Shown piece after piece: positions 5,593-53,075 of a DNA stretch of 64,000 nucleotides. Position numbers and translations under genes: made by a program. Positions within the stretch are counted from its first letter, which is position 1; the number at the start of each line of letters is the position of its first letter. Under the pieces are notes generated by a model that did not search any database, was not told the origin of the DNA, and saw only the letters and a list, made by a program, of their open reading frames with translations. The stretch is from a virus: positions 1 to 64,000 of the IMG/VR virus record IMGVR_UViG_3300031857_000106, one strand, 5' to 3'.

Positions 5593-5901
5593 ATGCCAAC
5601 ACCTAAAATCAAAAAAATCATTAAGGAATACGGAGATGCTACCGCGTATGAGATCTGGGAAGGTATTAGAGACAATTTCATTTTTGGATTCTTAGGAGCA
5701 ACTCTCGTCGTCTTTATTTCAACTCGAGTCGACGCTGCAGTATTCATCGGTTACATCAGCTACTATTATTTCATGGGAAGAATAGTCAACCGGCCCAAGT
5801 ACGTGACTTCTCTCGGAAAAATGATCGTCTTTCCAATACCTTCTGCTCTCGGAGCTTTTACGGGTTATAAAGTCGCTTATCTCATTCCGCAATTATTATG
5901 A
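5593..5901 (+). CDS. Small inner-membrane protein
   Basis: A protein of 102 residues with two to three hydrophobic segments, about 27-45 (FIFGFLGATLVVFISTRV), 50-65 (VFIGYISYYYFMGRIV) and 78-100. The N-terminus is Lys-rich and presumably cytoplasmic. No catalytic motif. It could anchor or assist membrane-associated glycosyl transfer or act in host takeover. Its TGA overlaps the start of the next glycosyltransferase gene (ATGA). Confidence 0.65.
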   Translation: MPTPKIKKIIKEYGDATAYEIWEGIRDNFIFGFLGATLVVFISTRVDAAVFIGYISYYYFMGRIVNRPKYVTSLGKMIVFPIPSALGAFTGYKVAYLIPQLL

Positions 5902-7736
5902 GTCTACGGAGCAAAGAACTGAAAGCAGTATGGGTCCTCGAGAACGCGAAAAAAGATCGGAATTTCCACCTGCAGGAGATAGAGCTTCTTTATATTGTGG
6001 CTTCTGTCCTTCAGTGGAAAAAGCTCAACCCAAAAGTTCCTACTCATCTCATCTGCACGCCTGAGGTCTACCAGAGCTTTTGTGATCTGGATCTCGTTTA
6101 TCTCTGGGACCACATCGATCTAGATGTTTTGAAAGAGAAGGATGAAATAGACAGGAAACCGTTTTGGGCCTGTTCGAAGATCAAAGCAATGCGAAAGATT
6201 TCAGCACCTTTCGTAATGATGGACAATGATCTCTTTCTCACTCGAGCAAATGTAATGACAGAGGAAGACTATAAAAATTACGGTGTCGTGGTTCACTATA
6301 AAGAACACGGTCCCGGTTACTATCTCCTCTCTACAGATCCTACGCTATCAGATCTTCCCGGGCTTTACCCGCCTGATGCTAACGGAGACTCTTTCAACGT
6401 CTCATTCCTTTACATCAGAGATGACGATTTTCGTCAGAAATATGCTGACACTGCTTACTCTTGGATGACTCAGCTATCAGATGGAAGAGAAAAGATCCAC
6501 GGAGGTCACATGATCTTCTGTGAGCAGAAACTGCTTTATGACATGACGAAACGCGAAGGCGTGTCAGTTAAAGCAATAGTTCCTGATCTTTTCGATTGCA
6601 CAAAAAACTCTTTTAAGACTTCCAGCGAGATCCAATCTTATCTGAACCACTTGGGTCCTAAGAAAAGAGGAGTTCGAGGTAATCCAGACCTTTTGATCAA
6701 ATTGAAAAGTGATGTACTTTTTGTCTTAAAGGACTATTCTAATCTAAAACATATTTTCATCGCTCTGAAGAGAAACGATGAATTAATGGTAAAGAATGAC
6801 GGTAAATTTTACTTGAGCTCCAAGCTGAATCCTTACATAGAGCCTTCACCTCTGAAACATCAAAACCGAAAAGAGAATAAGATATGTGTCATCTATGCAC
6901 TTTGGGAAGAGGGAAAGTATCTGTCGTATCTCAAATACTCTCTCATGGCTCTGATCACTTCTACTGATGTCAGAGAAAGAGCAGATATCCTCATCATAGT
7001 GAGCGAAAATCTATATCATGCAGCGGTCCATTGTTTTAGCGGAATCTTATCCGAAGACTCTTTCGTAGTCGTGAAAGGCTTTAAAACTCCCAAATATGCT
7101 CTCCCCAACCACCCTAGAGTTCAGAAATACGACTATTTTATGATGCTTGATTCTGATGCTTTTTTTGTTGGATATCGCTCTATCTTCAAAGAGATAGAAG
7201 AGTTCTATTCTGATGAGTCTAACATAAATAGCATTTTCATGCACAAGGACCGCCCGAACGGTTTTCACGAATGGGGTTCCAAAGACGTCTTTTGGAGCCG
7301 TAAAAGAAATCTTTGCAATTCTATCGATGACGAAGAATATGAAAAAATCTTCGTAAAAAGAATGGGCTCTCAACGATTTGAAGAAATGATGCGAGCTGAA
7401 TTTTGGTGGGTTTCTTGCATCATGATTTATACTAAAAAACATTTCAGAGAAGACAGTTACCACTCATTTGTGATGGAACAACTTTGGAATAATCAATGGT
7501 GTGATGAGACTGTCTTTATCTCATATTCTCACATGATGGGTTATTCCATCAATCTCATAAATAATTTCTTCGAATGTTACGATGTTTGGTCTCGAAAAAA
7601 TGAGAGTCTGACTCTCTATCATCCGATAGTCGGCGGTAACACCACCGCGTATTCTAACGAAGAGATGATCGCAGACATTCAGACGAGATATGACGCAGCT
7701 GTAAAGAAAGAAACATTACTAGGAAAAAAGATATAA
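5898..7736 (+). CDS. Two-domain glycosyltransferase (domain A + domain B fusion)
   Basis: The 612-residue protein combines two GT-A-like modules. Domain A (about 8-250) begins KAVWVLENAKK and carries the DxD-type motif MMDNDLFL (Asp109/Asp111). Domain B (about 275-605) begins near KFYLSSKLNPYI and carries MLDSDAFF (Asp418/Asp420). Separate genes further along encode a lone B-type protein and a lone A-type protein clearly homologous to these halves, so this gene is a fusion, or they are its fission products. DxD motifs bind metal and nucleotide-sugar in family members. The acceptor is unknown. Translation is coupled to the upstream membrane protein. Confidence 0.8.
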   Translation: MSLRSKELKAVWVLENAKKDRNFHLQEIELLYIVASVLQWKKLNPKVPTHLICTPEVYQSFCDLDLVYLWDHIDLDVLKEKDEIDRKPFWACSKIKAMRKISAPFVMMDNDLFLTRANVMTEEDYKNYGVVVHYKEHGPGYYLLSTDPTLSDLPGLYPPDANGDSFNVSFLYIRDDDFRQKYADTAYSWMTQLSDGREKIHGGHMIFCEQKLLYDMTKREGVSVKAIVPDLFDCTKNSFKTSSEIQSYLNHLGPKKRGVRGNPDLLIKLKSDVLFVLKDYSNLKHIFIALKRNDELMVKNDGKFYLSSKLNPYIEPSPLKHQNRKENKICVIYALWEEGKYLSYLKYSLMALITSTDVRERADILIIVSENLYHAAVHCFSGILSEDSFVVVKGFKTPKYALPNHPRVQKYDYFMMLDSDAFFVGYRSIFKEIEEFYSDESNINSIFMHKDRPNGFHEWGSKDVFWSRKRNLCNSIDDEEYEKIFVKRMGSQRFEEMMRAEFWWVSCIMIYTKKHFREDSYHSFVMEQLWNNQWCDETVFISYSHMMGYSINLINNFFECYDVWSRKNESLTLYHPIVGGNTTAYSNEEMIADIQTRYDAAVKKETLLGKKI

Positions 7737-7750: not shown

Positions 7751-8953
7751 ATGGAAGACATACGTTGGGGATCTATCATTCCCCTCATCGGAGGAATGAC
7801 AGTAGGAAATAAGACGGCAGCAGGAAATGATCCTAGCGTCATCGTATCATATCCTGCTTTCGGCGACAATGATCAGCATTGTCGAAATTATTTTCAAGAC
7901 ACGCCTTATATTACGATAGATGCAGCAACCAACGTCGCAGAATCTGACATCAAGAGCTACGGTAAAATAGACTTTATGAGCACCGTCTGTCCCTGCGCCG
8001 GACTGTCTCAATTAAATTCAGCTAAGAACACGAGCAAAGGTCGAGGCAGCGATGCTGCTCAGAACGAATGGATGTATAAAAGCGCATCTTTTGTTCTTGA
8101 ACAGGTAAAGCCAAAAGTCTTCTGGGGAGAAAACGCTCCCGGACTTTATGGAAAGACCGGAGAAGGTGTGGTTGATCGTCTTCGCAGAATCGGTGAGGAG
8201 AACGGCTATTCTTTTTCAATGGTGAAGACAGACACTTTTCTCCACGGGATTCCTCAGCACCGCCACCGCACTTTCTACTTTTTCTGGGAAGGCCAAAGAG
8301 CACCAATCCTCTCATGGTACCGTAAAGAAGCTCCTCTCCTTGCGGACTATTTAGATCAAGTTCCTAAAGATGCCAAAGACATGGATCGATATTTTGGAAT
8401 GGGTCCCGCAGAAACAGATCCCTGGTTCAGGTTTGCTGCTTCTGAAGGTTTTACGCCAAAAGATCTCGTGAACTCGCCTAGAGGTTACAAATCAGTGTTT
8501 GATTTTGTCCAAGACGGAAGAATCGATACAGCTATAACTTGGGCTGATGCCAACGAGGAAAAGAAAATGTCCAACTTTTTGCAGAGAGCAAAGAAGAAGC
8601 TAGAAGCCGGAGAAGGTCTCTGGGTCGACACTCCGATACTCTTTAGAGAAGCCACGAACTCTTTGATCGGAAGATACACTTCGATAGTCCATCCTACGGA
8701 ACCTCGAGGCATCACAGTTCGAGAAGCTATGTGGTTGATGGGACTTCCTCATGATTTTGAGCTGAACACTACCAACGTCAATCACATCTGCCAGAACGTT
8801 CCGACGACCACAGCTGCTGATTGGACGAGAGAAGTGATCAAGTTCATCAGAGGTGAAGTAAAAGAATGGGGAGGCCATTTCGTGAAACAGAACAACATGA
8901 CTCAGAAGATTGACATCTCTGAGAAAAAAGTAAAAGTCAACAGCGTGATATGA
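7751..8953 (+). CDS. C5-cytosine DNA methyltransferase homologue
   Basis: A 400-residue protein with motifs of m5C methyltransferases in order: motif IV STVCPCAGLSQ (nucleophile Cys82), motif VI GENAPG (Glu127-Asn128), motif VIII GIPQHRHRTF (Gln169, Arg171, Arg173), and a C-terminal RGITVREAMWLMGLPHDF resembling motif IX. Motif I (IPLIGGMTVGN) is degenerate compared with FxGxGG, so activity is not assured. By family it would methylate cytosine at C5 in DNA. It is embedded among glycosyltransferases and 2OG oxygenases, which raises the possibility of base hypermodification. A leader of pure A/G (AAAGAAAAAGAAAC) precedes the start. Confidence 0.85.
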   Translation: MEDIRWGSIIPLIGGMTVGNKTAAGNDPSVIVSYPAFGDNDQHCRNYFQDTPYITIDAATNVAESDIKSYGKIDFMSTVCPCAGLSQLNSAKNTSKGRGSDAAQNEWMYKSASFVLEQVKPKVFWGENAPGLYGKTGEGVVDRLRRIGEENGYSFSMVKTDTFLHGIPQHRHRTFYFFWEGQRAPILSWYRKEAPLLADYLDQVPKDAKDMDRYFGMGPAETDPWFRFAASEGFTPKDLVNSPRGYKSVFDFVQDGRIDTAITWADANEEKKMSNFLQRAKKKLEAGEGLWVDTPILFREATNSLIGRYTSIVHPTEPRGITVREAMWLMGLPHDFELNTTNVNHICQNVPTTTAADWTREVIKFIRGEVKEWGGHFVKQNNMTQKIDISEKKVKVNSVI

Positions 8954-9894
8954 AGTGCATCTATGTAAACTGGAGCCAGCCTTTTCTAAGAAAAGAAAAG
9001 CTCAGAGGCCACGGTTTCAAGATCTTCAAAGACCTCGACAAATCAGAATACTTCAAACCAGTCTACGAGATCCTATTCACGATACTCTCTGTCGCTTATT
9101 GGAAGAAATACAACGGTACCGCAAAGCTCTACACTGACAAAGTCGGAGAAGAGTATTACAGAAAGATCGGAATCTTAGATCTCTGGGACGAAGTCGACAC
9201 TCAAAAGCTTGAAGAATTTAATCAGCTAGGAATAGAAGGCGGTGTCTTCTGGACTTCAGCAAAATCATACTGCATCGCCAAGGAAGAAGGACCTTTCGTC
9301 TTTTCAGACTTGGACTTCATCGTGAGGCAAAAGGTTCCTGATTATTTTTATTCAACTCAAGTCTCAATACCGCATTGGGAGATCCCACGAGGATACTATT
9401 ACCCCAGCGAAAAAGATCTCGAGTCTCTCACTCACTGGAAACCCTTCGAAGGATTTTCACAGAGGATGTTAGTCCCTAACACATCTTTCCTCTACTTGGA
9501 TTCAAAAGAGCTCCAAGATCTCTATTGGCAGAGACACTATGAAATAGTGAACACCGAGAACGAAGTTCCTGAATGGGTCTGGCTTCTTTCTGATCAGGGA
9601 GTCTTCGGACAATCTATCAGGTCTTTAGATCTAAAAACGACTTCTCTCACTGACAAGATATTTTTATCAGAGAATGAAGGTTGGGGTAGAGGCGGAGAAG
9701 GTTGGGCCGATATGTGGCTCTTTCCACCCGGTGCAGACATGGAGAAAGAAAAAGTCGAGTGGGAACACGTCTGGCTGGCCAAGGTGGCTTATACATTCAA
9801 CGAAGAGTTCAAGCAGAACGAGATCAAGCGCTACATTGCTGAGATCGATGGAGTCTTTCCAGAGCTCTCACATAAAATAGAATCCATCAGATGA
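8950..9894 (+). CDS. Glycosyltransferase-like protein, domain A family
   Basis: The 314-residue protein is homologous to domain A of the two-domain glycosyltransferase. It shares the order 'LYTDKV...YYRK..ILDLWDEVDTQKLEE', an FW-x-SAK segment and a DxD-type motif FVFSDLDFIV (Asp120/Asp122). The C-terminal half is richer in Trp and acidic residues than the paralogues. Likely cytoplasmic and metal dependent, with unknown donor and acceptor. It overlaps the methyltransferase stop and the next gene's start by ATGA junctions. Confidence 0.75.
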   Translation: MKCIYVNWSQPFLRKEKLRGHGFKIFKDLDKSEYFKPVYEILFTILSVAYWKKYNGTAKLYTDKVGEEYYRKIGILDLWDEVDTQKLEEFNQLGIEGGVFWTSAKSYCIAKEEGPFVFSDLDFIVRQKVPDYFYSTQVSIPHWEIPRGYYYPSEKDLESLTHWKPFEGFSQRMLVPNTSFLYLDSKELQDLYWQRHYEIVNTENEVPEWVWLLSDQGVFGQSIRSLDLKTTSLTDKIFLSENEGWGRGGEGWADMWLFPPGADMEKEKVEWEHVWLAKVAYTFNEEFKQNEIKRYIAEIDGVFPELSHKIESIR

Positions 9895-10544
9895 CGGAAG
9901 AGCAAAAGACTGCAGCTTTAGAACACTATAAAGAGAAAGGTTGGGCTCGGATAGAGCAGTGCATTCCTTCTGATTGGGTCTCGTGGCTTAGAGAACTATT
10001 CGTTAGAACGAGAGAAGAGCAGAAGCCTCTGCTGAGACAAGAGAAGCCTTACGGTTCTGGAACTTATTGGGAAGGCGTAGATTCTCTCTCAATGGTGAAC
10101 GAAGATCTCTTTAAAATTTACACTAGCGATCTCACCAAAGAAATCTTGAACATCTTCTGTAAAGAAGCATATTGTTTCATCGAAGAAGCAATCATCAAGA
10201 TGCCAGGTGAAGATTTTAGATACACTGAACATATTGATAGAGTAGGCGGGACTGATCCTAGGCTCTTCAACGATCCTCTTTACGATCAAATCACTCTCGC
10301 TTGGATCCTCACAGATCTCACAACTGAGAACGGGACTTTAGAAATAAAGGAGGGAGAAGAGTATCTGCCAGTCTACCCTAAAGCGGGAGACATCATGGTC
10401 TGGAATGATACTCTGTGGCACCGATCAGGGCCTAACCACAGCGAAGAGCCCAGAATTATTTGGATCAATTTCTTCACAATGCATCCTATCGGAAGAACCG
10501 AGGAGATTAACAAAGACTATTACGACTTAAAAATCATTCCATGA
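9891..10544 (+). CDS. Phytanoyl-CoA dioxygenase (PhyH)-like 2OG/Fe(II) oxygenase
   Basis: A 217-residue double-stranded beta-helix protein with the facial triad of PhyH enzymes: HID at 114-116, distal His177 in WNDTLWHRSG and the 2-oxoglutarate-binding Arg188 in EEPRIIW. PhyH-family members hydroxylate small molecules or peptidyl residues with Fe(II), O2 and 2-oxoglutarate. In this operon the substrate could be a sugar, a fibre residue or a modified base. It is coupled by ATGA to the gene before and to a SAM methyltransferase after it. Confidence 0.82.
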   Translation: MTEEQKTAALEHYKEKGWARIEQCIPSDWVSWLRELFVRTREEQKPLLRQEKPYGSGTYWEGVDSLSMVNEDLFKIYTSDLTKEILNIFCKEAYCFIEEAIIKMPGEDFRYTEHIDRVGGTDPRLFNDPLYDQITLAWILTDLTTENGTLEIKEGEEYLPVYPKAGDIMVWNDTLWHRSGPNHSEEPRIIWINFFTMHPIGRTEEINKDYYDLKIIP

Positions 10545-11143
10545 CAGGAAGAGAAAAGCTGCCATACTTATTGAATAGAGAAGATCTAATCGGAGCCGAG
10601 ATCGGCGTCGAAGAAGGATTCTTTAGTGAATACTTGCTTAAGACAGGTCTCTTCAGGACTCTGTACTCAATTGATCCCTGGCCTAATCGGTTTCCCGGAG
10701 TCTTTATCAATGGAGAAGATCTCGTTACGAGCAATAATGAAGAGACTTACACAACAGCTCGAGAAAAACTTGAAAAATACGAGGCCTCTGAAATCATCCG
10801 AAAGAGTTCAGAAGAAGCTTCAAAGGCTTTTGAGGACGAGAGCCTCGACTTTGTCTTTTTAGACGGAGACCACACCTACGAAGGCGTAAAGCTCGATCTC
10901 CAATGTTGGTATGACAAAGTAAAGAAAGGCGGAATTTTTTCAGGCCACGATTACATGGATTATGTGATGAATTGTGGAGGCGGCATCACCTCACATTTCG
11001 GAGTAAGGAGAGCCGTAGACGAGTTCTTCTCAGAAAAAGGCATACAAGTCTTTACTGTCGAGGAAATGGAAAGAGAGAGGCTGCAGTGGATTGAGAACTA
11101 CGAGAGCTTCCCAACTTGGTACAGCTGGTACATAATAAAATAA
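10541..11143 (+). CDS. Class I SAM-dependent methyltransferase (Methyltransf_24-like)
   Basis: A 200-residue protein with motif I GAEIGVEEGFFSEYLL (about 18-33), acidic SIDPW at the end of strand 2, and LDFVFLDGDHTYEGVKLDL (102-120), the hallmark of the Methyltransf_24 group, followed by GGIFSGHDY. This group often O-methylates sugars or natural products, and in phages and capsule loci it sits beside glycosyltransferases. A sugar-capping O-methyltransferase is the most likely role. A 4-base gap separates it from the next gene. Confidence 0.82.
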   Translation: MTGREKLPYLLNREDLIGAEIGVEEGFFSEYLLKTGLFRTLYSIDPWPNRFPGVFINGEDLVTSNNEETYTTAREKLEKYEASEIIRKSSEEASKAFEDESLDFVFLDGDHTYEGVKLDLQCWYDKVKKGGIFSGHDYMDYVMNCGGGITSHFGVRRAVDEFFSEKGIQVFTVEEMERERLQWIENYESFPTWYSWYIIK

Positions 11144-11147
11144 AGAT

Positions 11148-11870
11148 ATGAATTTCAAAGACCCACTGCTGAAATCAGATAAAGACGACGTCTATTACTT
11201 AGCACCGATTCCTGTCTACATGAAGCAGTTCGATGATCACGACTTTCACGACAGAGTCTATAATTTCGGCTTTGAGACCCTCAATCCAGCTCAGAAGCTG
11301 ATGGGACAGGAACTACCTGAACGCTACGACGAAGAGAGGCAGAGCACTTATCAACCTTGGAGCGATTCTGAGGTGGCAGAAAGATGGGTCGAGAACACCG
11401 AGTACAATCCAATCGGAAGCCGATACTCAGTTCCGCCCAACGATTTTTTAAAGACTAATAATCCAGACGTAGCAGTGATTAGACAGAGAATTTTTGATGG
11501 ATTCAGCCATCTGTTGAATTCTATCGAAGTTCCTCACGACATTACTCAAGCAAAGATCACTGAGAGCTGGATGCAATACTATGACCCTTATGCCGGTCGC
11601 GGCCATCAGGCTCACAATCACTGCAGGTGGCATCCTTCAGAAGAACCCATGGTCGGATTTTCTGGCGGTTACTACCTCTCTGACGGCGATCCGATCAAAG
11701 ACCATCCTTACAGTGGAGTCTTTTGTTTTCACATTAGAGGAATGTCTCATTTCATCAGACCAAAGAAAGGGCTCTTGGTGATTTGGCCTTATGACATCGT
11801 CCACTCAGTCAAACCATTTTACGGAAAAACACACAGATGCGTGATCAATTTCAACATACAACTCCCATAA
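11148..11870 (+). CDS. 2OG/Fe(II) oxygenase (phage prolyl-hydroxylase-like family)
   Basis: A 240-residue protein. The second half carries a His-rich iron-binding segment (GHQAHNHCRWH, 152-162), a strand FSGGYYLSDGD, and the distal DIVHSVKP with His219 plus Arg230 in HRCVINFNI, which would bind 2-oxoglutarate. This 'SG-x-YYL ... HSV-P ... R-x-x-x-x-FN' pattern is typical of 2OG-Fe(II) oxygenases common in large phages. The N-terminal 100 residues are family specific. Together with two other oxygenases it suggests several hydroxylation steps in this pathway. Confidence 0.82.
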   Translation: MNFKDPLLKSDKDDVYYLAPIPVYMKQFDDHDFHDRVYNFGFETLNPAQKLMGQELPERYDEERQSTYQPWSDSEVAERWVENTEYNPIGSRYSVPPNDFLKTNNPDVAVIRQRIFDGFSHLLNSIEVPHDITQAKITESWMQYYDPYAGRGHQAHNHCRWHPSEEPMVGFSGGYYLSDGDPIKDHPYSGVFCFHIRGMSHFIRPKKGLLVIWPYDIVHSVKPFYGKTHRCVINFNIQLP

Positions 11871-12649
11871 AAGTAGTCCGAGCTTTTTGGGGAGAGAACA
11901 AAGACATCTGGGCAGAGATACCGAGCTCGCCTGAATGGGACGAGATCGTCTATGTCTGGGGAGAAGAGAACGAGAAGAGGTTGAAATCGATGGGATATGA
12001 GACAAAGCTCATGTGCACCACGATGACTGAACCGAAGTACAGCACGATCTATGATCACTTTGCTCATAAATTAGATACTTACGTCGCGGCTGAGGAAGAT
12101 TGGGGAGAATTTCTCTTTCTCGATTGGGACGTAAAGATCATCAAAGAGATAGATGAGCGGTTCTGGGATCTCGTGAGGACCAAACCTCTTCAGTGTCCGG
12201 TTTACGGTTATCCGAAAGAATATGAGAGAAAGATATGGGAGCACATAGAAGCAAACCCTCAGAAAAAATGGGTACAAGAGCTCGATCCGAACACAGGTGA
12301 CTGGGTTAAAGTCCAAAATGAGCAGCTCGAAAAATACAATTGGAATTGGGAAGACCTCCAGCTCGTTCCTAATGTCTGCTTCTTCTACTCTTCTTACACA
12401 GGAGTTCCGAAAAAGCTGAGAAAGATCTACGAAAATCAAGGTGTAAAAACGTGCATTGAAGAGTTTGCAGTGTGGATCTGGGCTGATTGTTCTCTCGATG
12501 AATTCATCGAAGAACACGAACCTTTTGTGATCAGAGGGAGAGAAGATGATCTCTGCCACTTTGACCTCGCAGAGGAAGAGACTATGAAGAGGATTAACGC
12601 TTACGTGAATACAAAAATCAAAAAAGAAATTTATCTGAAGCATCTATGA
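11837..12649 (+). CDS. Glycosyltransferase-like protein with DWD motif
   Basis: A 270-residue protein with a GT-A type layout: an N-terminal strand/helix region (KVVRAFWGEN), then EFLFLDWDVKII with a DxD-like Asp96-x-Asp98, and a conserved LVPNVCFFYSS further on that resembles the acceptor-side segment in capsule glycosyltransferases. The start overlaps the previous gene by 34 bases, which is unusual here; the next in-frame Met lies well inside the fold, so the longer start is kept. It is coupled to the GT25 gene by ATGA. Confidence 0.72.
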   Translation: MRDQFQHTTPIKVVRAFWGENKDIWAEIPSSPEWDEIVYVWGEENEKRLKSMGYETKLMCTTMTEPKYSTIYDHFAHKLDTYVAAEEDWGEFLFLDWDVKIIKEIDERFWDLVRTKPLQCPVYGYPKEYERKIWEHIEANPQKKWVQELDPNTGDWVKVQNEQLEKYNWNWEDLQLVPNVCFFYSSYTGVPKKLRKIYENQGVKTCIEEFAVWIWADCSLDEFIEEHEPFVIRGREDDLCHFDLAEEETMKRINAYVNTKIKKEIYLKHL

Positions 12650-13236
12650 TCACTCGAGTAATTACGCTGGGCGGAGAAAGGATGAAATCTTTTCAAGAAA
12701 GAATGGGACCTAAAATCCCTTTTGAATTTTTCAAAGGCTTTACGCCGGACTACATTTCCGACATTGAACCCATGTTTGAAAAGAGCAACATATATGAATA
12801 TGCTCACGAAAGGAATCCAAGAGCAGTTATCGCCTGTGCTAAGAGCCACCTTTGGCTCTGGGAAATGTGTATCCGCTTAGATGAGGAAATTTTGATACTC
12901 GAAGATGATGTGACTTTTAGCGATGATTTTGCAGAAGAAGCGTTTAACGTTTTCATCTATAACTTAAACGATTATGAGTACGATGTCTTCTTTTTTGACG
13001 GAGATTGGGGAGAGAAGTACATAGTATCTCAGCCTCATCGCTTTCATTCAGGCTGTGCCTACGTAATGACTCCTAAGGGAGCTCAAAAGATTTTGGACAA
13101 GCTTGAAGCTGAGGGCTTCGATGAAGCGATCGATTGGGAGATCTTAAATTCACAAAACTACGGAGTGAGAGCTCTCGCTTTTGAAAGAGCGATCCTCGTT
13201 CCATCAGCTGACGAAAAATCGACTTTGAAGATATGA
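12646..13236 (+). CDS. GT25-family glycosyltransferase
   Basis: The 196-residue protein matches family GT25 along its length: an N-terminal VITLGGERMKSFQERM (the 'V-x-x-L-x-R-x-x-RxxxF' block), GF at 31-32, ACAKSHLWLWEMC (63-75; the conserved A-C-x-x-SH) and ILILEDDVTF (82-91; the acidic donor/metal site). GT25 contains LPS galactosyltransferases and the animal collagen beta-galactosyltransferases. It is flanked by 2OG oxygenases and precedes collagen-like fibre genes in the same window, so a fibre acceptor is an attractive but unproven idea. Confidence 0.85.
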   Translation: MITRVITLGGERMKSFQERMGPKIPFEFFKGFTPDYISDIEPMFEKSNIYEYAHERNPRAVIACAKSHLWLWEMCIRLDEEILILEDDVTFSDDFAEEAFNVFIYNLNDYEYDVFFFDGDWGEKYIVSQPHRFHSGCAYVMTPKGAQKILDKLEAEGFDEAIDWEILNSQNYGVRALAFERAILVPSADEKSTLKI

Positions 13237-13793
13237 TAAAATTGCACGACGACATTTTCCTTTTTGAAAAGATCTTGACCGAAGAAATAATTGAAGAGGG
13301 CCTGAAGATCGTATCAGGAGAATCTAAACAGAGCTACGGGATAGAAGAGGGTTCTCATTTCTTCAATCTGATAAATGATCTCTGGTTCAAAAAGATCGAA
13401 GATCCTCTGCACGAAGAATACTTTCGTCTCGTTCCTCTGCCTGCTGAGACTATCAAAGCTTTGAGAGAATTCACGAAGACTGATTGGAGAGATCTCTTCT
13501 TTCTCAGATACTATCCCGAAAACACTCAAGAGCTGAGCACCTACGTCCACGCTGATTTTTCGACTTGGACTTTCAGCGCCTGCTTCGTCAATTCTGAAGA
13601 GTATGAGGGAGGCTCGCTCTGTTTTCCTAGACAAGGAGTAAAGAAGAAATTAGACAGAGGAGATGTAGTAGTCTTTCCAGGTGGTCTGACTCACCTCCAC
13701 TACACTGAGAACATTCAAGAGGGAGAGAGAATAGTCTTAGTCGGACAATCAATGCCTTATAAACAAGACCACAGATTGGGAAAACCTCTCTGA
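13233..13793 (+). CDS. Prolyl-4-hydroxylase-type 2OG/Fe(II) oxygenase
   Basis: A 186-residue protein with the P4Hc arrangement: LRYYPENTQELSTYVHAD with iron ligands His106 and Asp108, EGGSLCFPRQG, GDVVVFPGG, then distal His154 and Arg166 (GERIVLVGQ) for 2-oxoglutarate. This is close to the canonical prolyl-hydroxylase/AlkB-like 'HxD...GGxLxFP...H...R' layout. Substrates in the family include peptidyl proline, lysine or asparagine. It is ATGA-coupled to GT25, an arrangement reminiscent of hydroxylate-then-glycosylate pathways. Confidence 0.85.
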   Translation: MIKLHDDIFLFEKILTEEIIEEGLKIVSGESKQSYGIEEGSHFFNLINDLWFKKIEDPLHEEYFRLVPLPAETIKALREFTKTDWRDLFFLRYYPENTQELSTYVHADFSTWTFSACFVNSEEYEGGSLCFPRQGVKKKLDRGDVVVFPGGLTHLHYTENIQEGERIVLVGQSMPYKQDHRLGKPL

Positions 13794-13823
13794 AACATTT
13801 GATCTTTTCACGATAAGAGAAAT

Positions 13824-15130: not shown

Positions 15131-15149
15131 ACTAGAAAATCAAGAATCT

Positions 15150-17094: not shown

Positions 17095-17097
17095 AAC

Positions 17098-18305: not shown

Positions 18306-18389
18306 GGCCTGGTGGAGAAATTGGTAGACTCGCCATCTTGAGGGGGTGGTTCCAGCAATGGAGTGAGGGTTCGAATCCCTCCCAGGTCA
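18306..18389 (+). tRNA. tRNA-Leu (anticodon GAG)
   Basis: An 84-base class II tRNA with acceptor GGCCTGG/CCAGGTC, anticodon stem CCATC/GGTGG around TTGAGGG, a variable arm and T-arm GAGGGTTCGAATCCCTC. It reads CUC/CUU. CTC is conspicuously frequent for leucine in the enzyme genes of this window. Confidence 0.92.
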
Positions 18390-44100: not shown

Positions 44101-45345
44101 GCAAACTATTCGGATCTCAATTTATATGCTCAAGTTTCTCCCCTATCATCTCATAATATGGGATTGTCACTTTCTGCCAGAGAAGTCGTTGAAGATCTCT
44201 ATCTAAACACTTCAGGCAATGTAGGAGTAGGTACAGGTTCACCTGATAGAAAGCTACATGTTTATACTGGAGCTCCAACCGGTGCTACAGGCTCATCAGC
44301 CAATAGTGCAATACTAATAGACAGTAACGGTAACCAATACTTAGAATTCAGGACGAGATCAGACAGTACCGGTATTATGCAAGGTCTGCTCTTCACCGAC
44401 AACGGTAGAAACGGGTTCATGGGCTTCAAAGAATATACGGCCGCTGCTGCCAACACTTACGGAGAATCTATTCAGTTCGCAATCCAAGATTTTTCAGGTT
44501 CTGATGCAGGTAGTGGATTTTGGTGGGGTACTACGACAGATGCAGCCAACGGTATCACGACCCCGAGAATGTTCCTCAGAAGCAACGGTAACCTCAATCT
44601 GGGATATAGCACCGATCAGGGTTATAGACTCGCCGTGAGCGGTACAACTTATATCTCTAGCAGTTTCTCGGTCAACACCGCTTCTTATTCCACTACCTTT
44701 GGCGACGCTGGAAGTTCTTTAATTAAAGGTTACTCTTCGGACGGTTACACTGCAGCTTTCTACGGGCCGATTGGTACTAATCTCACGAATCCTTTTAGAG
44801 GAGGGCTTGTCATGGCAGACACGACTGCCCTCGCTGCTAACGTCGGAGGCCAGATCGCTTTAGGTTACAAGTACGATGGCAACGAGATCACTACAGGTGC
44901 CATCATTAAGCAGTACAAAGAGAACGGTAGCAGTGGGCACTACGGATCAGGTCTTTATATTATGGTCAGAAACACTGGGGAAGAAATAAATGTCAAATTC
45001 AACCTCAATCCTTCAGGTTCTCTCACAGTCAAAGGTGATCTCATCGCTTATGGATCCCCTTCAGATGCTCGTCTTAAGAACATCAAAGAGAAGATCCAAG
45101 ATCCGATCGGCATCTTGAAGAAGATCAACGGCTACCGATTTGATTGGAAGAAAGAAGATCTCGTACTCAAGCTCAAAGAAGACATAGGAGTCATCGCTCA
45201 AGAAGTCCAAGAAGTTCTCCCGGAGCTCGTGAGGCTGAATAATGACGGCTACTATTCAGTGAGAGAAAAGGGACTCATCCCGATTCTCATCGAAGCGATC
45301 AAAGAACTCAATCAGAGAATTGAAGATCTCGAAAGAGATAGATAA
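41092..45345 (+). CDS. Collagen-like tail fibre 4 with S74 chaperone domain
   Basis: The protein has 1417 residues and is the only fibre with an ATG start; it lacks the leader hairpin because it overlaps fibre 3. Head ([18 protein letters not shown]), shaft about 65-285, [14 protein letters not shown] linker as in fibre 2, then a distinctive strand-rich domain ([20 protein letters not shown]) followed by '[14 protein letters not shown]' units. The S74 domain is of a different subtype: [11 protein letters not shown] (Ser1324/Lys1329), [15 protein letters not shown], coiled coil [12 protein letters not shown]. Probably binds a different receptor from its paralogues. Confidence 0.9.
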
Positions 45346-45362: not shown

Positions 45363-48176
45363 TTGGCCGGATACCGCATATCGAACACATCGGGCATTGC
45401 CCTTTCCACTGACAACGAAGGAATCAGCATTCCTACCGCGAACGGGACTTCTGGTCTCAAGACCGCGGGCGTTCCTACGGGATCTCTCATATTTAGCACG
45501 AGTGACAACCAGCTCTACTCTTTCAACGGAACGAGCTGGGTCCGAGCTTCCACCTCAGGCAGCGCAGGAACTAGCGGTTCCTCAGGCAGCGCAGGAACTA
45601 GCGGTTCTTCGGGAACTGCTGGAACTTCAGGCTCTAGCGGAACAGCTGGGACCAGTGGATCTAGCGGAACCTCGGGAACTGCAGGAACTAGTGGAACCAC
45701 CGGTCCGATCGGTCCTCAAGGGCCACAGGGACCTAACGGCCCACAGGGTTTTACGGGTCCACAAGGTGCAATCGGGCCGCAGGGAAACTCTGGACCGCAA
45801 GGAACTGGAGGCTCTAGCGGAACAGCTGGGACCAGTGGATCAAGCGGAACAGCCGGAACTAGTGGATCTAGCGGAACAGCTGGAACTAGCGGTACGAGTG
45901 GTACGAGCGGAGCTCAAGGGCCGCAGGGCAACCAGGGGCCGATCGGGCCACAGGGTTCGACTGGGCCTCAAGGAGCTCAAGGGCCACAGGGATTCCAAGG
46001 ACCGAGCGGATCTAGTGGAACTAGTGGGGTTTCAGGTGCGTCAGGTACTAGTGGAACGTCTGGAACTTCTGGTTCTTCAGGAAATAGCGGGACTTCTGGG
46101 TCATCAGGGACAAGCGGAACATCAGGCTCTAGTGGAACAGCAGGAACTAGCGGTATTCAGGGACCTCAAGGTCCTATCGGACCACAGGGCAACACAGGTC
46201 CTCAGGGTCCTCAAGGCCCTCAGGGTCCTCAAGGCCCTCAGGGGCCAGGTGGTGGACAAGGACCTAGCGGCTCATCAGGGACAAGTGGTGTTTCAGGCGC
46301 ATCAGGAACCAGCGGTACTAGTGGAACGAGTGGTGGACAGGGCCCAGGTGGTTCAAGCGGAACCTCGGGAACTAGCGGAAACAGCGGAACTTCCGGGTCA
46401 TCAGGAACATCTCCAGATGCTGCTTTATACGTAGCAAAGGCCGGTGATACGATGACTGGCCAATTGATTATAGGTGCAGGCGGTATTGGGATGCAGAGAA
46501 CGCAGAACAATAACGGAATTTGGTTCAATTCAGGCTCTGATACAAATCATATTTTATGGAATGACTACTATGGAGGGCCAACAACAAGAACGGGTTCACC
46601 TGGCGGTTTTGATGGAATAAAATGGAATACGTATAGAGGCATTCACATTAGAGGTGGAGCAGCAGGAGCTTATAATTGTATCGTAGTAACGAATAGTTCA
46701 GGAGCTGAAAACGATCACACTGTTTCTTTGTATGCTGCAAATGTGCTTAGGCTTCAGACAACAACGAGTGGAGTTAACATTTCGGGTAATCTTGTAAATA
46801 CAGGGACAGTTACAGCAACATCTACGGGAGTAGATGGCACTTTTGCAAACGCTTTTATTGCACAGTATTCGGGTAATAATGCCGAAACGAATGCTATCCA
46901 AACGGCTGTTTCTTCTGCAGCTACACAGAGTGGATTTAGGTTTCAAGTAAGCGATGGCGGAGGCTCTTCGGCAAGAACGAGTGTAGTTGATTTTTTACGA
47001 GATAGGGCTAATTTCTATACTCGGCTTCAGGCAATCGGTGCTGCCGTACAAACTGAAGGTTTATTAAATATAAGCAACACCTACGCTAGCGGAGGTGTTT
47101 ATTATCCCGCAGCAAAATTCAGAAACACTCGAGGAGACCACAGTTACGGAATCGTATCTGAATTTTCAACTGGTTCCACAGGTGGTGACAGGGCTACAGT
47201 TTTATTTTACAGCGATTCAGCTGCTCACAGCTGGCAAGTAGGCCAAGTAACAGCAGCCTGGGGAAATGGAGACTCGTTTGGAATCGGTTATAGAGCTAAT
47301 AATGCACCGAGCACATTTTCTAATTGGCCAACTAATTACTTTACTATTGCTACTGGAGGCAACGTAGGTATCGGAGTTACTAATCCCCTGGCTAAACTAG
47401 ATGTATCGGGCAGCATATATGTAAGAACAGGAAACGCATTATATACAGATTCAATAGCAGGATATAGCGTGGGTGTTGTCTCTCTAGCTTCAGCTACTAA
47501 TTTCTTGGTGCCTTCAGGACGTATTACAATAGGCACAGAAAACACTACAGACGGTAGACTTCAAGTTAGGGGTGCAGGAGTTGCTGATGCGACAACTACT
47601 TATGGTATTATTCTTGATAGAGGGACAAAAATCGCATGGACAAATACTGGAAATGCTAGTACAGGAGAGTACATATATTCTCAAGCCGACAGCCCCTATG
47701 CTGTAACTATACACTCAGGCGGCTATAATGCTCTCGCATGTCCAAACACGAGTCATGTGTATATTAACTATGAAGCAGGAACTTGCTCGATAGGCAGCAC
47801 ATCATTCAGCACTTCATATAAACTTTATGTGACAGGCCAAATTTATGCTACTTCTGACATAACGGCATATTCTGATAGGAGAAAGAAAGAAAACATCACC
47901 ACCATAGACAATGCTCTCGATAAAGTTTCAGGCTTAAGAGGTGTGTTCTATAACAGAATAGATGATGAATCTAAGAAAAGAAATCTCGGTGTCATTGCAC
48001 AGGAAGTATTAGAAATAGTGCCAGAAGCAGTTTCTTACGCTGAGGATACAGACGAATACGGAGTGAAATACGGTAACCTGGTCGGACTTCTCATTGAAGC
48101 TATCAAGGAACAACAGGCGACGATCGCTTCTCAAGGTGAACGAATAAACAGCTTGGAAAAACTTTTGAAATCTTAA
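45363..48176 (+). CDS. Collagen-like tail fibre 5 with S74 chaperone domain
   Basis: The shortest fibre, 937 residues, with a TTG start. Its first bases and leader are almost the same as fibre 2. The shaft is the longest, about 65-350, with repeated switches between GTSG/GSSG and GPQG blocks. Linker PDAALYVAKAGDTMTGQLIIG carries the AGDTMTG fibre repeat found in many phage tail fibres. A short adhesive region (about 370-825) precedes S74 (AYSDRRKKENI; Ser837/Lys842) and coiled coil IASQGERINSLEKLLKS. Confidence 0.9.
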   Translation: MAGYRISNTSGIALSTDNEGISIPTANGTSGLKTAGVPTGSLIFSTSDNQLYSFNGTSWVRASTSGSAGTSGSSGSAGTSGSSGTAGTSGSSGTAGTSGSSGTSGTAGTSGTTGPIGPQGPQGPNGPQGFTGPQGAIGPQGNSGPQGTGGSSGTAGTSGSSGTAGTSGSSGTAGTSGTSGTSGAQGPQGNQGPIGPQGSTGPQGAQGPQGFQGPSGSSGTSGVSGASGTSGTSGTSGSSGNSGTSGSSGTSGTSGSSGTAGTSGIQGPQGPIGPQGNTGPQGPQGPQGPQGPQGPGGGQGPSGSSGTSGVSGASGTSGTSGTSGGQGPGGSSGTSGTSGNSGTSGSSGTSPDAALYVAKAGDTMTGQLIIGAGGIGMQRTQNNNGIWFNSGSDTNHILWNDYYGGPTTRTGSPGGFDGIKWNTYRGIHIRGGAAGAYNCIVVTNSSGAENDHTVSLYAANVLRLQTTTSGVNISGNLVNTGTVTATSTGVDGTFANAFIAQYSGNNAETNAIQTAVSSAATQSGFRFQVSDGGGSSARTSVVDFLRDRANFYTRLQAIGAAVQTEGLLNISNTYASGGVYYPAAKFRNTRGDHSYGIVSEFSTGSTGGDRATVLFYSDSAAHSWQVGQVTAAWGNGDSFGIGYRANNAPSTFSNWPTNYFTIATGGNVGIGVTNPLAKLDVSGSIYVRTGNALYTDSIAGYSVGVVSLASATNFLVPSGRITIGTENTTDGRLQVRGAGVADATTTYGIILDRGTKIAWTNTGNASTGEYIYSQADSPYAVTIHSGGYNALACPNTSHVYINYEAGTCSIGSTSFSTSYKLYVTGQIYATSDITAYSDRRKKENITTIDNALDKVSGLRGVFYNRIDDESKKRNLGVIAQEVLEIVPEAVSYAEDTDEYGVKYGNLVGLLIEAIKEQQATIASQGERINSLEKLLKS

Positions 48177-48177: not shown

Positions 48178-49140
48178 ATGCCTAACAAGATCAAATATAG
48201 CACTACAGCTGACAGCAGCCGAGCCTTAAAGAAGGGAAACGTTCTCATCGGTACGAGAGACCTTGAATACGGACCGACCTCAAGCACTGGTTATTGGAAT
48301 GGGATCACTCCACCTTCAGCGTACACAGTCTACACCGTGCCTTCCAATGCAAATACGCCCAGCATGGTCACGCCTGCAAATGACACTCAGATGATCGCTT
48401 ATGCAAGAACTCTAGGCGGAAATCCATCCACGATAGGAGACGCTCTAAGCTATGTTGCGGGACTAACGAATTCTATAGCAGTCAATCGAGACTATGAGGA
48501 CATTGTTCTCGACAGTCTCGTTTTTGGTTGGGACGCAGGTTTCACAGCTTCTTACCCAAGAGCTGGAAGCACTGTCTATGATCTAGTAGGATCTTCTAAC
48601 GGAACAGCAGTCTCTACTTCTTACAACAGTTCTAACGGAGGATCTCTGGCTTCTAGCTCAGGCTACATTAACATGGGCTCGCAGAATCTCCAGAGAAACT
48701 GGTCTTTAGAAGGCTGGTTCTATATGGTTGATAGTACATCTTTTGGCGTCTTTGGTCAAGGGACACAAGCTCAGAGCGCAGGACTTCACATAATTTACTC
48801 TAGCGGATCTCGCGGAATGATCTTTGGTTTATACAGCAACGATAACGATTACATGAATAATTATCGTCCGTCAGATAATGTTTGGTACCACTGGGTCTTT
48901 ACTTACAACAATTCAACATACGACAAACAGTTCTATGCCAACGGAGTCTTACAGACGCCGGGATCGAGCGTAGAAACAGTTTATAGCGGTTCAGGCCAAT
49001 TGAACGTCGGAGCAGCTTACGGCTCACCTTTATCTCTTTATAACGGTAGGATAGCAATCTCTCGAATGTACAGCAAGGTTCTTTCAGGATCTGAAATTTC
49101 TCAAAATTTTAACACTCAGAAATCTCGCTTTGGATATTGA
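48178..49140 (+). CDS. LamG/concanavalin-like lectin-domain tail protein
   Basis: A 320-residue protein. The C-terminal 200 residues follow the LamG/ConA-like pattern: DSLVFGWDAGFTASYP, WSLEGWFYMVDSTSFGVFGQG, WYHWVFTYNNSTYDKQFYAN, LQTPGSS and SLYNGRIAISRMYSKVLSGSEI. Such domains bind carbohydrates or proteins at phage tail tips. The N-terminal 110 residues (ADSSRALKKGNVLIGTRDLEYGPT) look like an attachment domain. It starts one base after the fibre 5 stop. A candidate host-recognition or fibre-cap protein. Confidence 0.82.
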   Translation: MPNKIKYSTTADSSRALKKGNVLIGTRDLEYGPTSSTGYWNGITPPSAYTVYTVPSNANTPSMVTPANDTQMIAYARTLGGNPSTIGDALSYVAGLTNSIAVNRDYEDIVLDSLVFGWDAGFTASYPRAGSTVYDLVGSSNGTAVSTSYNSSNGGSLASSSGYINMGSQNLQRNWSLEGWFYMVDSTSFGVFGQGTQAQSAGLHIIYSSGSRGMIFGLYSNDNDYMNNYRPSDNVWYHWVFTYNNSTYDKQFYANGVLQTPGSSVETVYSGSGQLNVGAAYGSPLSLYNGRIAISRMYSKVLSGSEISQNFNTQKSRFGY

Positions 49141-49193: not shown

Positions 49194-52100
49194 TTGGCCG
49201 GATACCGCATATCAAATACATCTGGGATCGCCCTCTCCACTGATAACGAGGGCATCAGCATTCCAACCACCGCGAACGTCGCAGGTCTCAGGACCGCAGG
49301 AGTCCCAACTGGGTCTCTAGTCTACGCTGTCGCAGATTCTCAGCTCTACGCCTTCAATGGAACGAGCTGGATCAAAGCCGACACGAGCGGCACGAGTGGA
49401 ACTTCAGGCTCCAGCGGAACCGCTGGAACTTCGGGAACGAGCGGCTCGTCTGGAACGAGCGGAGCTACCGGAACGAGCGGTACTTCAGGAATCACCGGAC
49501 CGCAGGGTCCACAGGGACCGATCGGGCCACAAGGAGTCCAAGGTCCACAAGGTCCACAGGGGCCGATCGGACCACAGGGATCTCAGGGGCCTAACGGCAC
49601 TTCAGGGACGACAGGTACGAGCGGATCTAGTGGAACTGCCGGAACTTCAGGCAGCAGCGGAACTGGTGGAACTAGCGGAACTTCGGGCAGCAGCGGTACT
49701 TCAGGGACTAGTGGTTCAAGCGGAACTGCTGGAACATCAGGCGGCATCGGTCCTCAGGGGCCGACCGGACCACAGGGAAACCAGGGACCTATCGGAACTG
49801 GTGGAACGAGCGGAACTTCAGGCGGAATTGGACCACAGGGACCACAAGGTCCTCTCGGACCTCAGGGCTCGACTGGGCCGCAAGGTTTACAGGGACCGCA
49901 AGGTCTTCAAGGTCCGAACGGCACGAGTGGAACTAGCGGTTCTTCGGGAACAAGCGGGACATCGGGTTCTAGTGGAACTTCGGGAACTAGTGGATCGAGC
50001 GGAACTGCAGGGACGAGCGGAGGGCAGGGACCGAGTGGAACTAGTGGAACGAGCGGAAACAGCGGTTCTTCAGGCACTAGTGGAACTTCAGGAGGGCAGG
50101 GCCCAGGTGGAACTAGCGGAACCTCAGGTACGAGCCCAGCTAGCCAGGTAACAGGTAGCGGAACTAGCGGTCAAGTTTCTTTTTGGACTGGAACTAATTC
50201 TCAAGCCGGCGATAATAATCTGTTCTGGAATAATACTGATAAGAGATTAGGTATCGGAAAAGCTGGAGCTGACGCTAGGTTAGAAGTTTACGCTGGTACT
50301 AAGCCTCAGATAAGGGCAAATGGTGGTACTGCGATGGGAGGCGGCATCGAATGGTATACTGAGTTGTCAGGCACAGACAGAAGAAACTGGTCTTTTTTGA
50401 CTGAAGACGTCATATCTGGTGATTTCAATCTTTTACGGTCATCTTCAGCAGGTGCTGCTCCTTCTATAGTGACTCTAGCTTTTCAAAGGACAGGATCTGC
50501 TGAATTCAAAAGTGATCTACAAACTCTCGGTAAATTAGGAGCCTCAGACAACAACGGACTTTTTCTGAGAGGCAATTCAGACGTCACACATAAACTATAT
50601 TACACTTCTACTGGAACAGTTGGCATCATTCTAGAAATCAATAATAATTTTAGGATCAACTATTACAACGGAGGATCTCCAAGCACACCTTTTACTTTCA
50701 GTACCGGCGGTAATTTAACTGCAACCGGCATTACTACTTCCAATCGTTTTATTTCTAGTGCAACAGATAACGGTTCTGGCGAATACTACTTTTTTACTGG
50801 GAATGCCGCAGTGAGCAATAACTTGACAATATACGCGTATGCGAATAGTGTGTACACAAACGCATACAGCAGCTATCATATCAGAGCTAACAACACAGGA
50901 GGATCCGGAGGTTACATATTTCTCCACGGTGGCAGCGTGATGCTGGGGACTGCAGATGCGCCAGTCCTTCACAGCGGAACTCGGGGTGTCGTTATCAAAG
51001 GTTCTGCTCGTGGCATTCTGGAGCTCTGGGATGCTACTTCGGGTAAGTCTGTATTTCAAAATGTCGGCGGCGATACCTATATTGGACAGCTCGATAAAGG
51101 CACCGGAGCAGGCAGCACTTTCTTGCTGGTTAACGGAAACGGTTCAACCGCAGATGTAGCTTTAACTCTCACATCAACAGCAGCGGCCACCTTTGCGAGC
51201 ACTCTTAGAACCAACGGTAACGTTGGAGTAAGAGTGACACCATCATCAGCGAGCGATCAGTATCTGACGACGGGAGATGCAGGCATAGCTTACTCTAATA
51301 CGTATTTTGGAACAGGTATGGTTCGTATCGGAGGAGGCTCGGATCACGTAGATAATACAGTTCTTTCTGTGGCGCCAGGTGTCGTAGTTTTTGATAGACC
51401 TGGCATCTCGGGCGGTGCATTGAAGATCACCGGCACCGGACAGATACTGATGGGCACTACCGCAGCTCTACAGTCTAATGAAAAATTAGCCGTAACTTCA
51501 AGCACAAACACTCCAATCATTGCTCAATTCACAGGCGGCAGCACCAGCGGGTGGGCAGCCAAGTTTTGGAACAACGGCACAACAGGTGACAATCTCATAG
51601 CTGAATTTTTAACTGAATCCTCTCTTACGGCCAGAGGATCTATTAGATATGACAGAAGCGGTGATAGACTCAATATAGCTGGCGCTGGAAGCGGCTTATA
51701 TTTCACAGGGACAGCTGCAGCCTTCTACACGACTACGGCCAATGACAACGAAGGCACTCTAAAATACGAAAACGGTAATACTGGCACAGGCGGAGCAACG
51801 AATGCTCAGTTGCTCGGCAAGTCTAAATTCGGCACTGCTCAGTTCATGGTTTGGGAGAACTACGGTATTCGTTTTGGTATGAGATCTACTGCTAACAGCG
51901 GTGCAGGCAGCATTTATTTCACTACAGGTACTGATGCAGTGAAAATGCTGATAGACAACGCTGGAAGCGTAAAATTCGGCAGTAACAATAGCACAATAAT
52001 CGGAGCAGACGGTGGTTCTGGCTACATTTACTCGTATTCTTCGGGCGATCCTAAAATCTACATTGAGGCTAATGGTACTGTAGCTTTTTTGAATCCAACT

Positions 52101-53075
52101 GGTGTATTCATTGGTACTACTACTAGATGGAATAATGAGAGATTCGGTATACAAATAACGAACACAAACAACTGGACAAACATACCGTCCATGATAAGGC
52201 TTACGAATTTTACTAGTGGAGGTATAACTAAGATCACATTCACTGACAGCTCTATCATTGACGGTTGGCTGGGTATGGTTCCTAGCGCTGCAGCTAAAAG
52301 CTATTTTGCAATGGGCTTTGCCGGATATACTGAGCAAGGCTTTAAAGTTTATCAAAACGGTTACGCTTATGTTCAAAACAGACTAGGCGTGAACGTAGAT
52401 TATGATTCATTAGGATGGAAATTACAGGTTGCAGACGTAGGCGCTAATATATCAGGAGGTGAAGCCATTTCAACCAGCACGATGAAAGGAGTCATGATAG
52501 AAAACACTAACAACGGTAATGAATCTATTGGAGTTTGGTTTAGAACAGGAAGCAATCACCTCTCTGGAATATCAGCTCAAAGAAATGACTCTGCTTCTAC
52601 GTGGGGAACTGATCTTAGATTCTATACTCACCAAAACGCTACTTCTAGCCTGACTTCTGCCTTCCAAAGAATGATCATCACTTCTGAAGGGGCGATGGGA
52701 CTTGGCGTCACTCCAACCAACACTGGTGGGAGATTCGAAGCTTCTAATGACATCGTTGCATATTCGTCTTCTGATATTAGATTCAAAAAGAACGTGACTG
52801 AAATAAAAGAGCCTCTTCAGAAAATCTCCAAAATTAGAGGTATCTCTTTTGATTGGATAGAGATGGAAGAATTCCATGGTAACAGCGGTCACGATGTCGG
52901 TGTCATTGCACAAGAAATCGAAGAAGTCCTTCCAGAAATTGTGACTACTCGAGAAAGTGGATACAAAGCAGTCAAATACGAGAAGATCGTACCTCTCCTC
53001 ATCGAAGCGATCAAGGAGCAACAAGCTACGATAGCCTCTCTCGAGGCCCGGATAAATATGTTGGAATCAAAATAA
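49194..53075 (+). CDS. Collagen-like tail fibre 6 with S74 chaperone domain
   Basis: The protein has 1293 residues and a TTG start, with leader TTAGATAGATAAGCAAAGC as in fibre 5. Head about 1-64, shaft about 65-320 rich in GTSG/GSSG and GPQGPIG blocks, linker [14 protein letters not shown] as in fibre 3. The adhesive region includes '[16 protein letters not shown]' and '[11 protein letters not shown]' units. S74 subtype like fibre 4: [11 protein letters not shown] (Ser1193/Lys1198) and a Glu-rich coiled coil [16 protein letters not shown]. Ends the fibre array. Confidence 0.9.

Follow-up and report, generated by a model that had tools for sequence, protein, structure and literature searches.

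Animal lysyl hydroxylases act on X-Lys-Gly, in which the lysine occupies position Y of the collagen triplet Gly-X-Y. A viral counterpart is the mimivirus protein L230, in which a GLT25D1-like part is combined with a lysyl hydroxylase (LH) part and which attaches glucose to hydroxylysine (PMC9614988); for both L230 and R699 of this virus, action on the lysine of collagen has been demonstrated (PMC9546862, PMC9614988). Prokaryotic and prophage collagens have so far been treated as mostly unmodified (PMC8968730, PMC3368898). The review that describes hydroxylation and glycosylation of collagen by mimivirus presents bacterial collagens as mostly without them (PMC8968730), and work on an E. coli prophage collagen states that bacteria and viruses are without the needed prolyl hydroxylases and reports a recombinant protein without glycosylation (PMC3368898). 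A study of Baltic viruses lists a P4HA gene, the viral use of which it calls cryptic (PMC9301287). Within the mostly open literature, and to the extent that its texts are accessible, we found no account of PLOD/COLGALT-type enzymes or of hydroxylysine glycosylation in phages. Here we describe a pair of adjoining genes in a stretch of 64,000 nucleotides (the window; positions 1 to 64,000 of the virus record IMGVR_UViG_3300031857_000106), which encode a GT25 glycosyltransferase (12646-13236, + strand) and a 2-oxoglutarate (2OG)-Fe(II) oxygenase of the lysyl-hydroxylase type (13233-13793, + strand). By sequence, the GT25 protein is homologous to the first domain of the phage protein family phrog_61 and the oxygenase to its last domain, and it is through this protein, a single chain in relatives, that gene fusion links the two adjoining window genes.

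The GT25 protein matches PF01755 with an E-value of 6e-19 (69.2 bits, cut-off 24) and carries an EDD motif. It scores 51 bits against a GT25 profile derived from nine fusion proteins and aligns with positions 13-153, the N-terminal domain, of phrog_61 (E-value 7e-5). The oxygenase scores 50 bits against the LH profile of nine fusions and aligns with positions 445-625, the C-terminal domain (E-value 1e-11), although no Pfam family is matched over its cut-off. Its active-site residues are H106, D108, H154, H156 and R166; the HxD...H iron ligands are present, and the position that binds 2OG is occupied by a basic residue, Arg as in LH3, where the fusions have Lys. The two genes are separate open reading frames (ORFs) with a 4 bp overlap and do not form a single polypeptide, and no other ORF of the window scores against the fusion-domain profiles.

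The original prediction had labelled the oxygenase as prolyl 4-hydroxylase (P4H)-like. The 2OG fold was borne out by our analysis, but the sequence is nearer to LH: a profile of the window protein and 13 relatives (14 sequences, profile A3) found the LH domain of L230 (5e-28) and LH3 (4e-27) in the PDB, and a long way behind them PiuC (2e-6) and P4H (3e-3). This profile rules out P4H as the first choice, which the fold alone cannot do since it does not separate P4H from LH. Indeed, the predicted structure (pLDDT 77.5) has LH3 as its top Foldseek match (5e-9), and by VIA L230 (Z 17.9) and an algal P4H (Z 17.6) are tied. In the suggested comparison with P4H, PhyH and TET/JBP profiles, PhyH was matched by another window gene only (9891-10544), and the 13233-13793 protein, closest to LH, stayed below the Tet_JBP cut-off (13.7 bits against 34.9), for which reason a TET/JBP filing is rejected.

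phrog_61 itself is named just '2OG-Fe(II) oxygenase' in PHROG, in the category moron/AMG (auxiliary metabolic gene). In tblastn searches of phage records, the window oxygenase aligned to the C-terminal part of a protein of S-PRM1 and S-CAM9, and the window GT25 protein to the N-terminal part of the homologue in S-8S53, S-8S55 and S-8S56. The S-CAM9 protein of about 614 amino acids (aa) matches phrog_61 over its full length (E-value 3e-294) and contains GT25 (1e-28), GT_PLOD (8e-47, 160 bits) and a C-terminal 2OG domain. The domain order in phrog_61 (about 600 aa) is thus a COLGALT-like GT25, a PLOD glucosyltransferase and an LH. Compared with the PDB, the S-CAM9 fusion matches LH3 over its glycosyltransferase (GT) and LH domains (6e-33), COLGALT1 (4e-20) and L230 (1e-8), and the predicted structure of the fusion (mean pLDDT 89) gives domain-wise matches to LH3, R699, COLGALT1 and L230. 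For 19 of the 20 active-site columns that were checked, conservation extends to 89 to 91 of 91 three-domain loci, and the remaining one, W316, is conserved in 86. Fusion carriers make up 11 of 50,697 phage records: nine records of Synechococcus phages, one marine virus and the Roseobacter phage CRP-6. In S-8S55, S-PRM1 and S-CAM9 the fusion is preceded by two stand-alone 2OG genes that do not match the fusion-domain profiles. Two variants of the fusion (L020 and L023) have a second GT25 in tandem in front, with a weak PLOD-GT match. One protein from an uncultured phage, a structural match of lesser strength, bears the UniProt name procollagen-lysine 5-dioxygenase.

The 91 three-domain loci (L005-L008, L009-L022, L030, L031, 68 of L033-L101, L256, L338 and L427) include loci from a profile scan of viral contigs, in which 80 of 250 relatives were taken in. 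As they are redundant, with S-CAM9 and S-PRM1 present both as GenBank and as IMG/VR copies and L256 and L094 representing one contig, the loci were also clustered at 70% identity. Fisher p-values calculated by locus assume independence between loci. A collagen shaft lies upstream on the same strand in 58 of the 61 three-domain loci that have at least 2.5 kb of upstream DNA, and in 15 of 18 clusters. A shaft is present in 66 loci, where its end precedes the enzyme gene by 0.7 to 9 kb, and all 66 have lysine in their shafts. Their 9,223 triplets contain lysine at position Y 2,152 times and at position X not once. When whole records were searched, S-8S55, S-PRM1 (IMG/VR copy) and CRP-6 each proved to have one collagen gene over the Pfam cut-off, which adjoins the enzyme gene. 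The gene order of shaft fibre, small tail gene and enzyme is kept in CRP-6 (45 kb), the host of which belongs to another phylum.

For comparison, control shafts were collected from viral contigs by pattern scans, with up to 120 stretches taken in per scan. Control shafts had at least 15 uninterrupted triplets and were not Gly-rich, runs of at least 10 being accepted in the enzyme-selected loci; 102 of 118 neutral, 36 of 120 Lys-X, 69 of 115 Lys-Y (70 of 118 in the KGQKG comparison) and 119 of 120 TSG controls were kept. Weak LH matches (35-48 bits) next to the control shafts L132, L213, L219 and L372 were left out of the count of GT25 plus LH. Among the neutral controls, 40 of 102 loci had no lysine, and lysine at X was found in 28 of the 62 that had it, versus 0 of the 15 fusion clusters (p-value of 6e-4). 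Lysine at Y alone was rejected as the sole marker, because many controls of the GDKGDKGD type show the same restriction to Y without an enzyme in the available DNA. The KGQKG motif separates the enzyme loci better than lysine at Y alone: it is present in 64 of the 66 enzyme-selected loci with collagen and, in four pooled pattern scans of which one selected for lysine at Y, in 5 of 6 loci with GT25 plus LH as opposed to 19 of 315 without, or 5 of 115 of the latter when at least 3 kb of downstream DNA is present. Collagen was absent from six viral loci that have GT25 only. On account of the domain homology, the shaft linkage, the confinement of lysine to Y and the KGQKG motif, we consider it likely that the fusion-bearing phages make animal-type glycosylated hydroxylysine on their fibres. 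The enzyme would hydroxylate shaft lysines before trimerisation, after which galactose and glucose would be added, as LH3 and ColGalT1 jointly do in animals. As a general phenomenon in relatives of the window phage, such a modification is well supported by genome evidence.

Three further loci (L457, L481 and L550) lie between these fusions and the window. They pair Thr/Ser shafts (TSG/SSG) or GPI shafts with a protein that has GT25 and LH and no GT_PLOD. A sub-type with GT25 and LH that goes together with fibres of the window type therefore does exist. The gene lies directly behind the fibres in L457 and one 2OG-like gene later in L481 and L550; in L481 the protein carries a GT4-type transferase in front. 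Islands such as AKGQKGEVG stand within the TSG shafts of L481 and L550, and each of the four shaft segments of L457 has one GPK.

The window is part of a virus record of 76,413 bases. A sister contig (IMGVR_UViG_3300042691_039251; 89,678 bases) was the sole match in scans with either the window GT25 protein or the window 2OG protein, and adds about 12 kb upstream of the window record. Both proteins are 100% identical there, and the sister contig therefore gives no independent evidence. A terminase (PF03237) was found in neither contig; this is weak evidence as an absence, but it fits the view that both are probably genome fragments.

The six fibres with long Gly-X-Y shafts that the original prediction had described in the window were all recovered, with Pfam Collagen over its cut-off and 28 matching places in the record. 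They are encoded on the + strand at 26364-30710 (shaft 26559-27224, 74 triplets), 30729-35555 (shaft 30924-31607, 76 triplets), 35943-41105 (shaft 36192-36641, 50 triplets and a short run of 5), 41092-45345 (shaft 41287-41916, 70 triplets, with Peptidase_S74 at the C-terminus), 45363-48176 (shaft 45558-46412, 95 triplets) and 49194-53075 (shaft 49389-50135, 83 triplets), and the long runs are uninterrupted. A Laminin_G_3/ConA-like lectin protein is encoded at 48178-49140, between the fifth and the sixth fibre. The shafts are rich in Thr and Ser and consist chiefly of GTS/GSS/GTA and GPQ/GPI triplets. Proline was correctly placed at X (125 of 448 triplets, versus 1 of 448 at Y). Lysine had been described as almost absent; its scarcity is real but 'almost' is too cautious.

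This last point is the foremost of several that weigh against a collagen-modifying role of the window pair. None of the 448 triplets of the six shafts, each of which is free of lysine, offers a lysine, and none was seen in the visible part of a seventh fibre shaft on the sister contig. KGxKG strings occur in three reading frames of the window, none of which is a fibre frame, and were not found in the flanking DNA covered around the window. Shafts on the same strand as the pair are present, but the first fibre of the window lies about 13 kb away, with other glycan genes around the pair, and a nearby shaft with lysine at Y was not found. A PLOD-type domain was absent from the window by the fusion-derived profile, and GT_PLOD was absent from the record and the sister contig by Pfam, a weak search in which the controls gave no signal. 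When the window oxygenase was searched alone, its best PDB match was LH3 at an E-value of just 0.016. The shafts of L457, L481 and L550 carry lysine, so that the window is the odd one out even among relatives without a PLOD glucosyltransferase. Moreover, 118 of 120 TSG-shaft loci show no GT25 or LH match, many of these loci being short (median 8.3 kb), three fusion loci with enough DNA (L041, L044 and L050) show no upstream collagen, and weak 2OG matches occur beside some Lys-X control shafts (L132, L213 and L219). Lastly, in 21 of 24 bacterial loci (L105-L125) an LH-type domain is encoded, but the available DNA, short in some of them, shows no collagen; the LH-type domain is therefore not tied to collagen. 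L104, which ends at a contig end, is not among these 21.

Some of the bacterial loci deserve mention in their own right. L105, L110, L116 and L117 are stand-alone LH-type oxygenases of actinobacteria with no collagen, the neighbours of which look by eye like ordinary chromosomal genes. Within 10 kb, a Streptomyces kronopolitis contig (L102) has PLOD-GT, LH, GT25 and a collagen run, and a Kaistia terrae contig (L103) has PLOD-GT, LH and a collagen run. These two are possible bacterial collagen-modifying systems.

The idea from which this analysis started, namely a phage pathway that hydroxylates and glycosylates its own collagen-like fibres, is consequently best upheld in the relatives, where a three-domain enzyme lies behind the shaft and to which the window pair is homologous. 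It fares less well in the window, given that no PLOD domain was found there, the distance and the lack of lysine. The claim is thus weaker for this phage than for the fusion phages, and the window is an unusual case that is split and lysine-free. The likeliest reading, to which we give about an even chance, is that the pair represents a split enzyme of the phrog_61 type that still modifies a virion fibre. It would be a two-step version, hydroxylation followed by one sugar, made in one run of overlapping genes together with other glycosyltransferases, and its target would still be a virion fibre. As the shafts are free of lysine, this target should be either a lysine-bearing collagen outside the fragment or other shaft residues; the Thr/Ser-rich shafts could then be sugar-coated by the other transferases of the cluster. 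In its fullest form the proposal would be that tailed phages carry the whole collagen-lysine glycosylation pathway in one protein, and that in the window lineage it was split, lost its glucosyltransferase and was retargeted to a non-lysine residue of Thr/Ser/Pro shafts. In that entirety we hold the proposal to be doubtful, and we know of no collagen modification of the retargeted kind from any organism.

The pair is embedded in a large cluster of genes, all on the + strand, that are closely packed and often overlapping from 5.9 to 17.9 kb, with more transferases from 19.8 to 23.4 kb. All three 2OG genes that had been predicted there were found. Upstream of the pair, the cluster comprises a DUF6734 protein (5898-7736), a C5-cytosine DNA methyltransferase (7751-8953; PF00145 E-value 2e-18, dcm model 41 bits and under its cut-off), a further DUF6734 protein under the Pfam cut-off (8950-9894), the PhyH-type 2OG oxygenase (9891-10544; 43.4 bits, cut-off 22), a Methyltransf_24 methyltransferase (10541-11143) and a 2OG oxygenase similar to phrog_81 (E-value 1e-14) and TIGR02466 (11148-11870; 2OG-FeII_Oxy_5 24.6 bits, under the cut-off of 27). 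The gene at 11837-12649, which overlaps the GT25 gene by 4 bp, has no Pfam or NCBIfam match, but its DWD motif suggests a probable GT-A glycosyltransferase. The methyltransferase at 7751-8953, inside the glycan cluster, has CPCAGLS as its motif IV, the usual form of which is PPCQ. Downstream of the pair follow a probable glycosyltransferase with a DDD motif and no family match (13824-14696), a cytidylyltransferase-like protein (14693-15130) that is nearest, under the cut-offs, to HldE adenylyltransferase and glycerol-3-phosphate cytidylyltransferase models, a probable glycosyltransferase with no family match (16180-17094), a DUF6734 protein (17098-17910) and, within 19778-23369, a DUF6734 protein (19778-20860), a GT34 gene (from 20857) and a GT2 gene (from 21633). 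One phage thus has four DUF6734 proteins, including the one at 8950 under the cut-off, which are probably glycosyltransferases of an undefined kind.

Ahead of the cluster, a nucleotidyltransferase (2963-3391) overlaps a PfkB kinase (3364-4227), and the two seem to resemble a split HldE. The upstream part of the sister contig contains GT4 genes, a gene for a CMP-sugar-type cytidylyltransferase (L594:10346-11071) and the last part of the seventh TSG-shaft fibre. With this fibre upstream and the window fibres downstream, the large glycan cluster is therefore framed by fibre genes. With the HldE-like genes and the CMP-sugar-type cytidylyltransferase, the phage may be able to supply activated sugars by itself. 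Other parts of the cluster were untraceable in phage records, since tblastn with the genes at 11148, 9891 and 5898 gave no match there; megablast of positions 8000-17900 also found none. Both predicted GT25 genes exceed the PF01755 cut-off, but the second one (61348-62229, + strand; E-value 4e-10, 40.2 bits, cut-off 24) was removed from the proposed collagen pathway, as it does not match the fusion GT25 profile; it belongs to a different subfamily and probably stands outside the collagen pair. Directly 3' of it, a GH19-type endolysin with a peptidoglycan-binding domain is encoded at 62247-63161. At 54235-57006 an RNA ligase (PF09414, PHA02142 OB-fold) adjoins a TROVE-domain (Ro60-like) protein, possibly as a phage RNA-repair or RNA-binding pair. 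Five tRNA genes form two groups at 4129-4291 and 18306-18546.

The composition of the cluster bears on three other explanations of the pair. Conceivably, the cluster including the pair builds or edits a surface glycan of the host, such as lipopolysaccharide (LPS) or capsule, for superinfection exclusion or receptor change, and leaves the fibres untouched. The HldE-like kinase and nucleotidyltransferase, the CMP-sugar-type cytidylyltransferase, the GT4 genes of the sister contig, and the GT2, GT34 and DUF6734 genes would all suit such a role; for the GT2 gene there is a match to GtrB-like families of O-antigen conversion (E-value 2e-5), and glycosyltransferases in the fibre region of pelagimyophages have been interpreted as modifying O-chains (PMC7029224). 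Why the nearest relatives of the pair should lie close behind fibres with lysine only at Y, and why the 2OG gene should group with lysyl hydroxylases, is left unexplained by this, and we regard it as unlikely. We judge it similarly improbable that the substrate of the pair is some peptide or small molecule with no relation to the fibres and that any shaft sugars are added by other transferases without hydroxylation. The Thr/Ser-rich shafts without lysine, the many other transferases of the cluster and the bacterial LH-type loci without collagen in the available DNA (21 of 24) agree with such a substrate, but the GT25 and LH genes adjoin each other and are fused in the collagen-linked relatives. 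Finally, DNA hypermodification, in which 5-methylcytosine (5mC) is oxidised by a TET-like enzyme and then glycosylated, would give a role to the C5-methyltransferase (7751-8953) as the source of 5mC, to the 13233-13793 protein with its weak Tet_JBP match and its model that matches NgTET1 (1e-7) amid many 2OG enzymes, and to a sugar-adding transferase, yet it is very improbable, as that Tet_JBP score is far below the cut-off, LH3 comes first by Foldseek, LH enzymes lead the profile search and phrog_61 is associated with collagen loci. TET chains are not among the VIA matches listed for the model, which has no bearing on its filing with respect to TET.

If fibre modification by the phrog_61-type enzymes is true, a hallmark of animals, glycosylated hydroxylysine, would also exist in viruses of bacteria, including cultured cyanophages and a roseophage, and a family filed as an 'auxiliary metabolic' oxygenase would become a fibre-modifying enzyme. 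A compact enzyme of a single chain would moreover become available for making modified recombinant collagen, and the origin of PLOD and COLGALT would become a question to ask.

Compared with known systems, the window genes match the two ends of phrog_61, from the name of which the transferase domains and the link to collagen are missing. Like the O-glycosylated bacterial collagens of the BclA type, the window shafts are Thr-rich Gly-X-Y repeats. In BclA-type shafts the sugar can sit directly on Thr, and to our knowledge no hydroxylase step is involved. With human LH3 (PLOD3) and ColGalT1 (PDB 8zgc, 6fxk and 9evj), the phage fusion shares the same three families and the conserved active-site columns, and in the neighbouring phage shaft lysine sits at Y, with Gly next to it; of the three families, GT25 and LH are retained in the window pair. 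Unlike in the human system, the parts of the phage enzyme form one chain of about 600 aa, and because this chain as a whole overlays poorly on LH3 (TM 0.32) the match holds domain by domain. The window differs further from the human system by its two genes, by having no PLOD GT that was found and by visible shafts free of lysine. L230, R699 and R655 of mimivirus are a case in which a virus encodes an LH and glycosyltransferases for its own collagen (PMC9546862, PMC9614988). Mimivirus is a virus of amoebae, in which the PLOD-type glucosyltransferase has a gene to itself (R699), whereas here the carriers are phages of bacteria, tail-fibre shafts are the collagen, and all three domains stand in one chain in the cyanophage enzyme. 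The window pair and the proteins of L457, L481 and L550 have the same domain pair as L230, which in the window is distributed, unlike in L230, over separate GT25 and LH genes.

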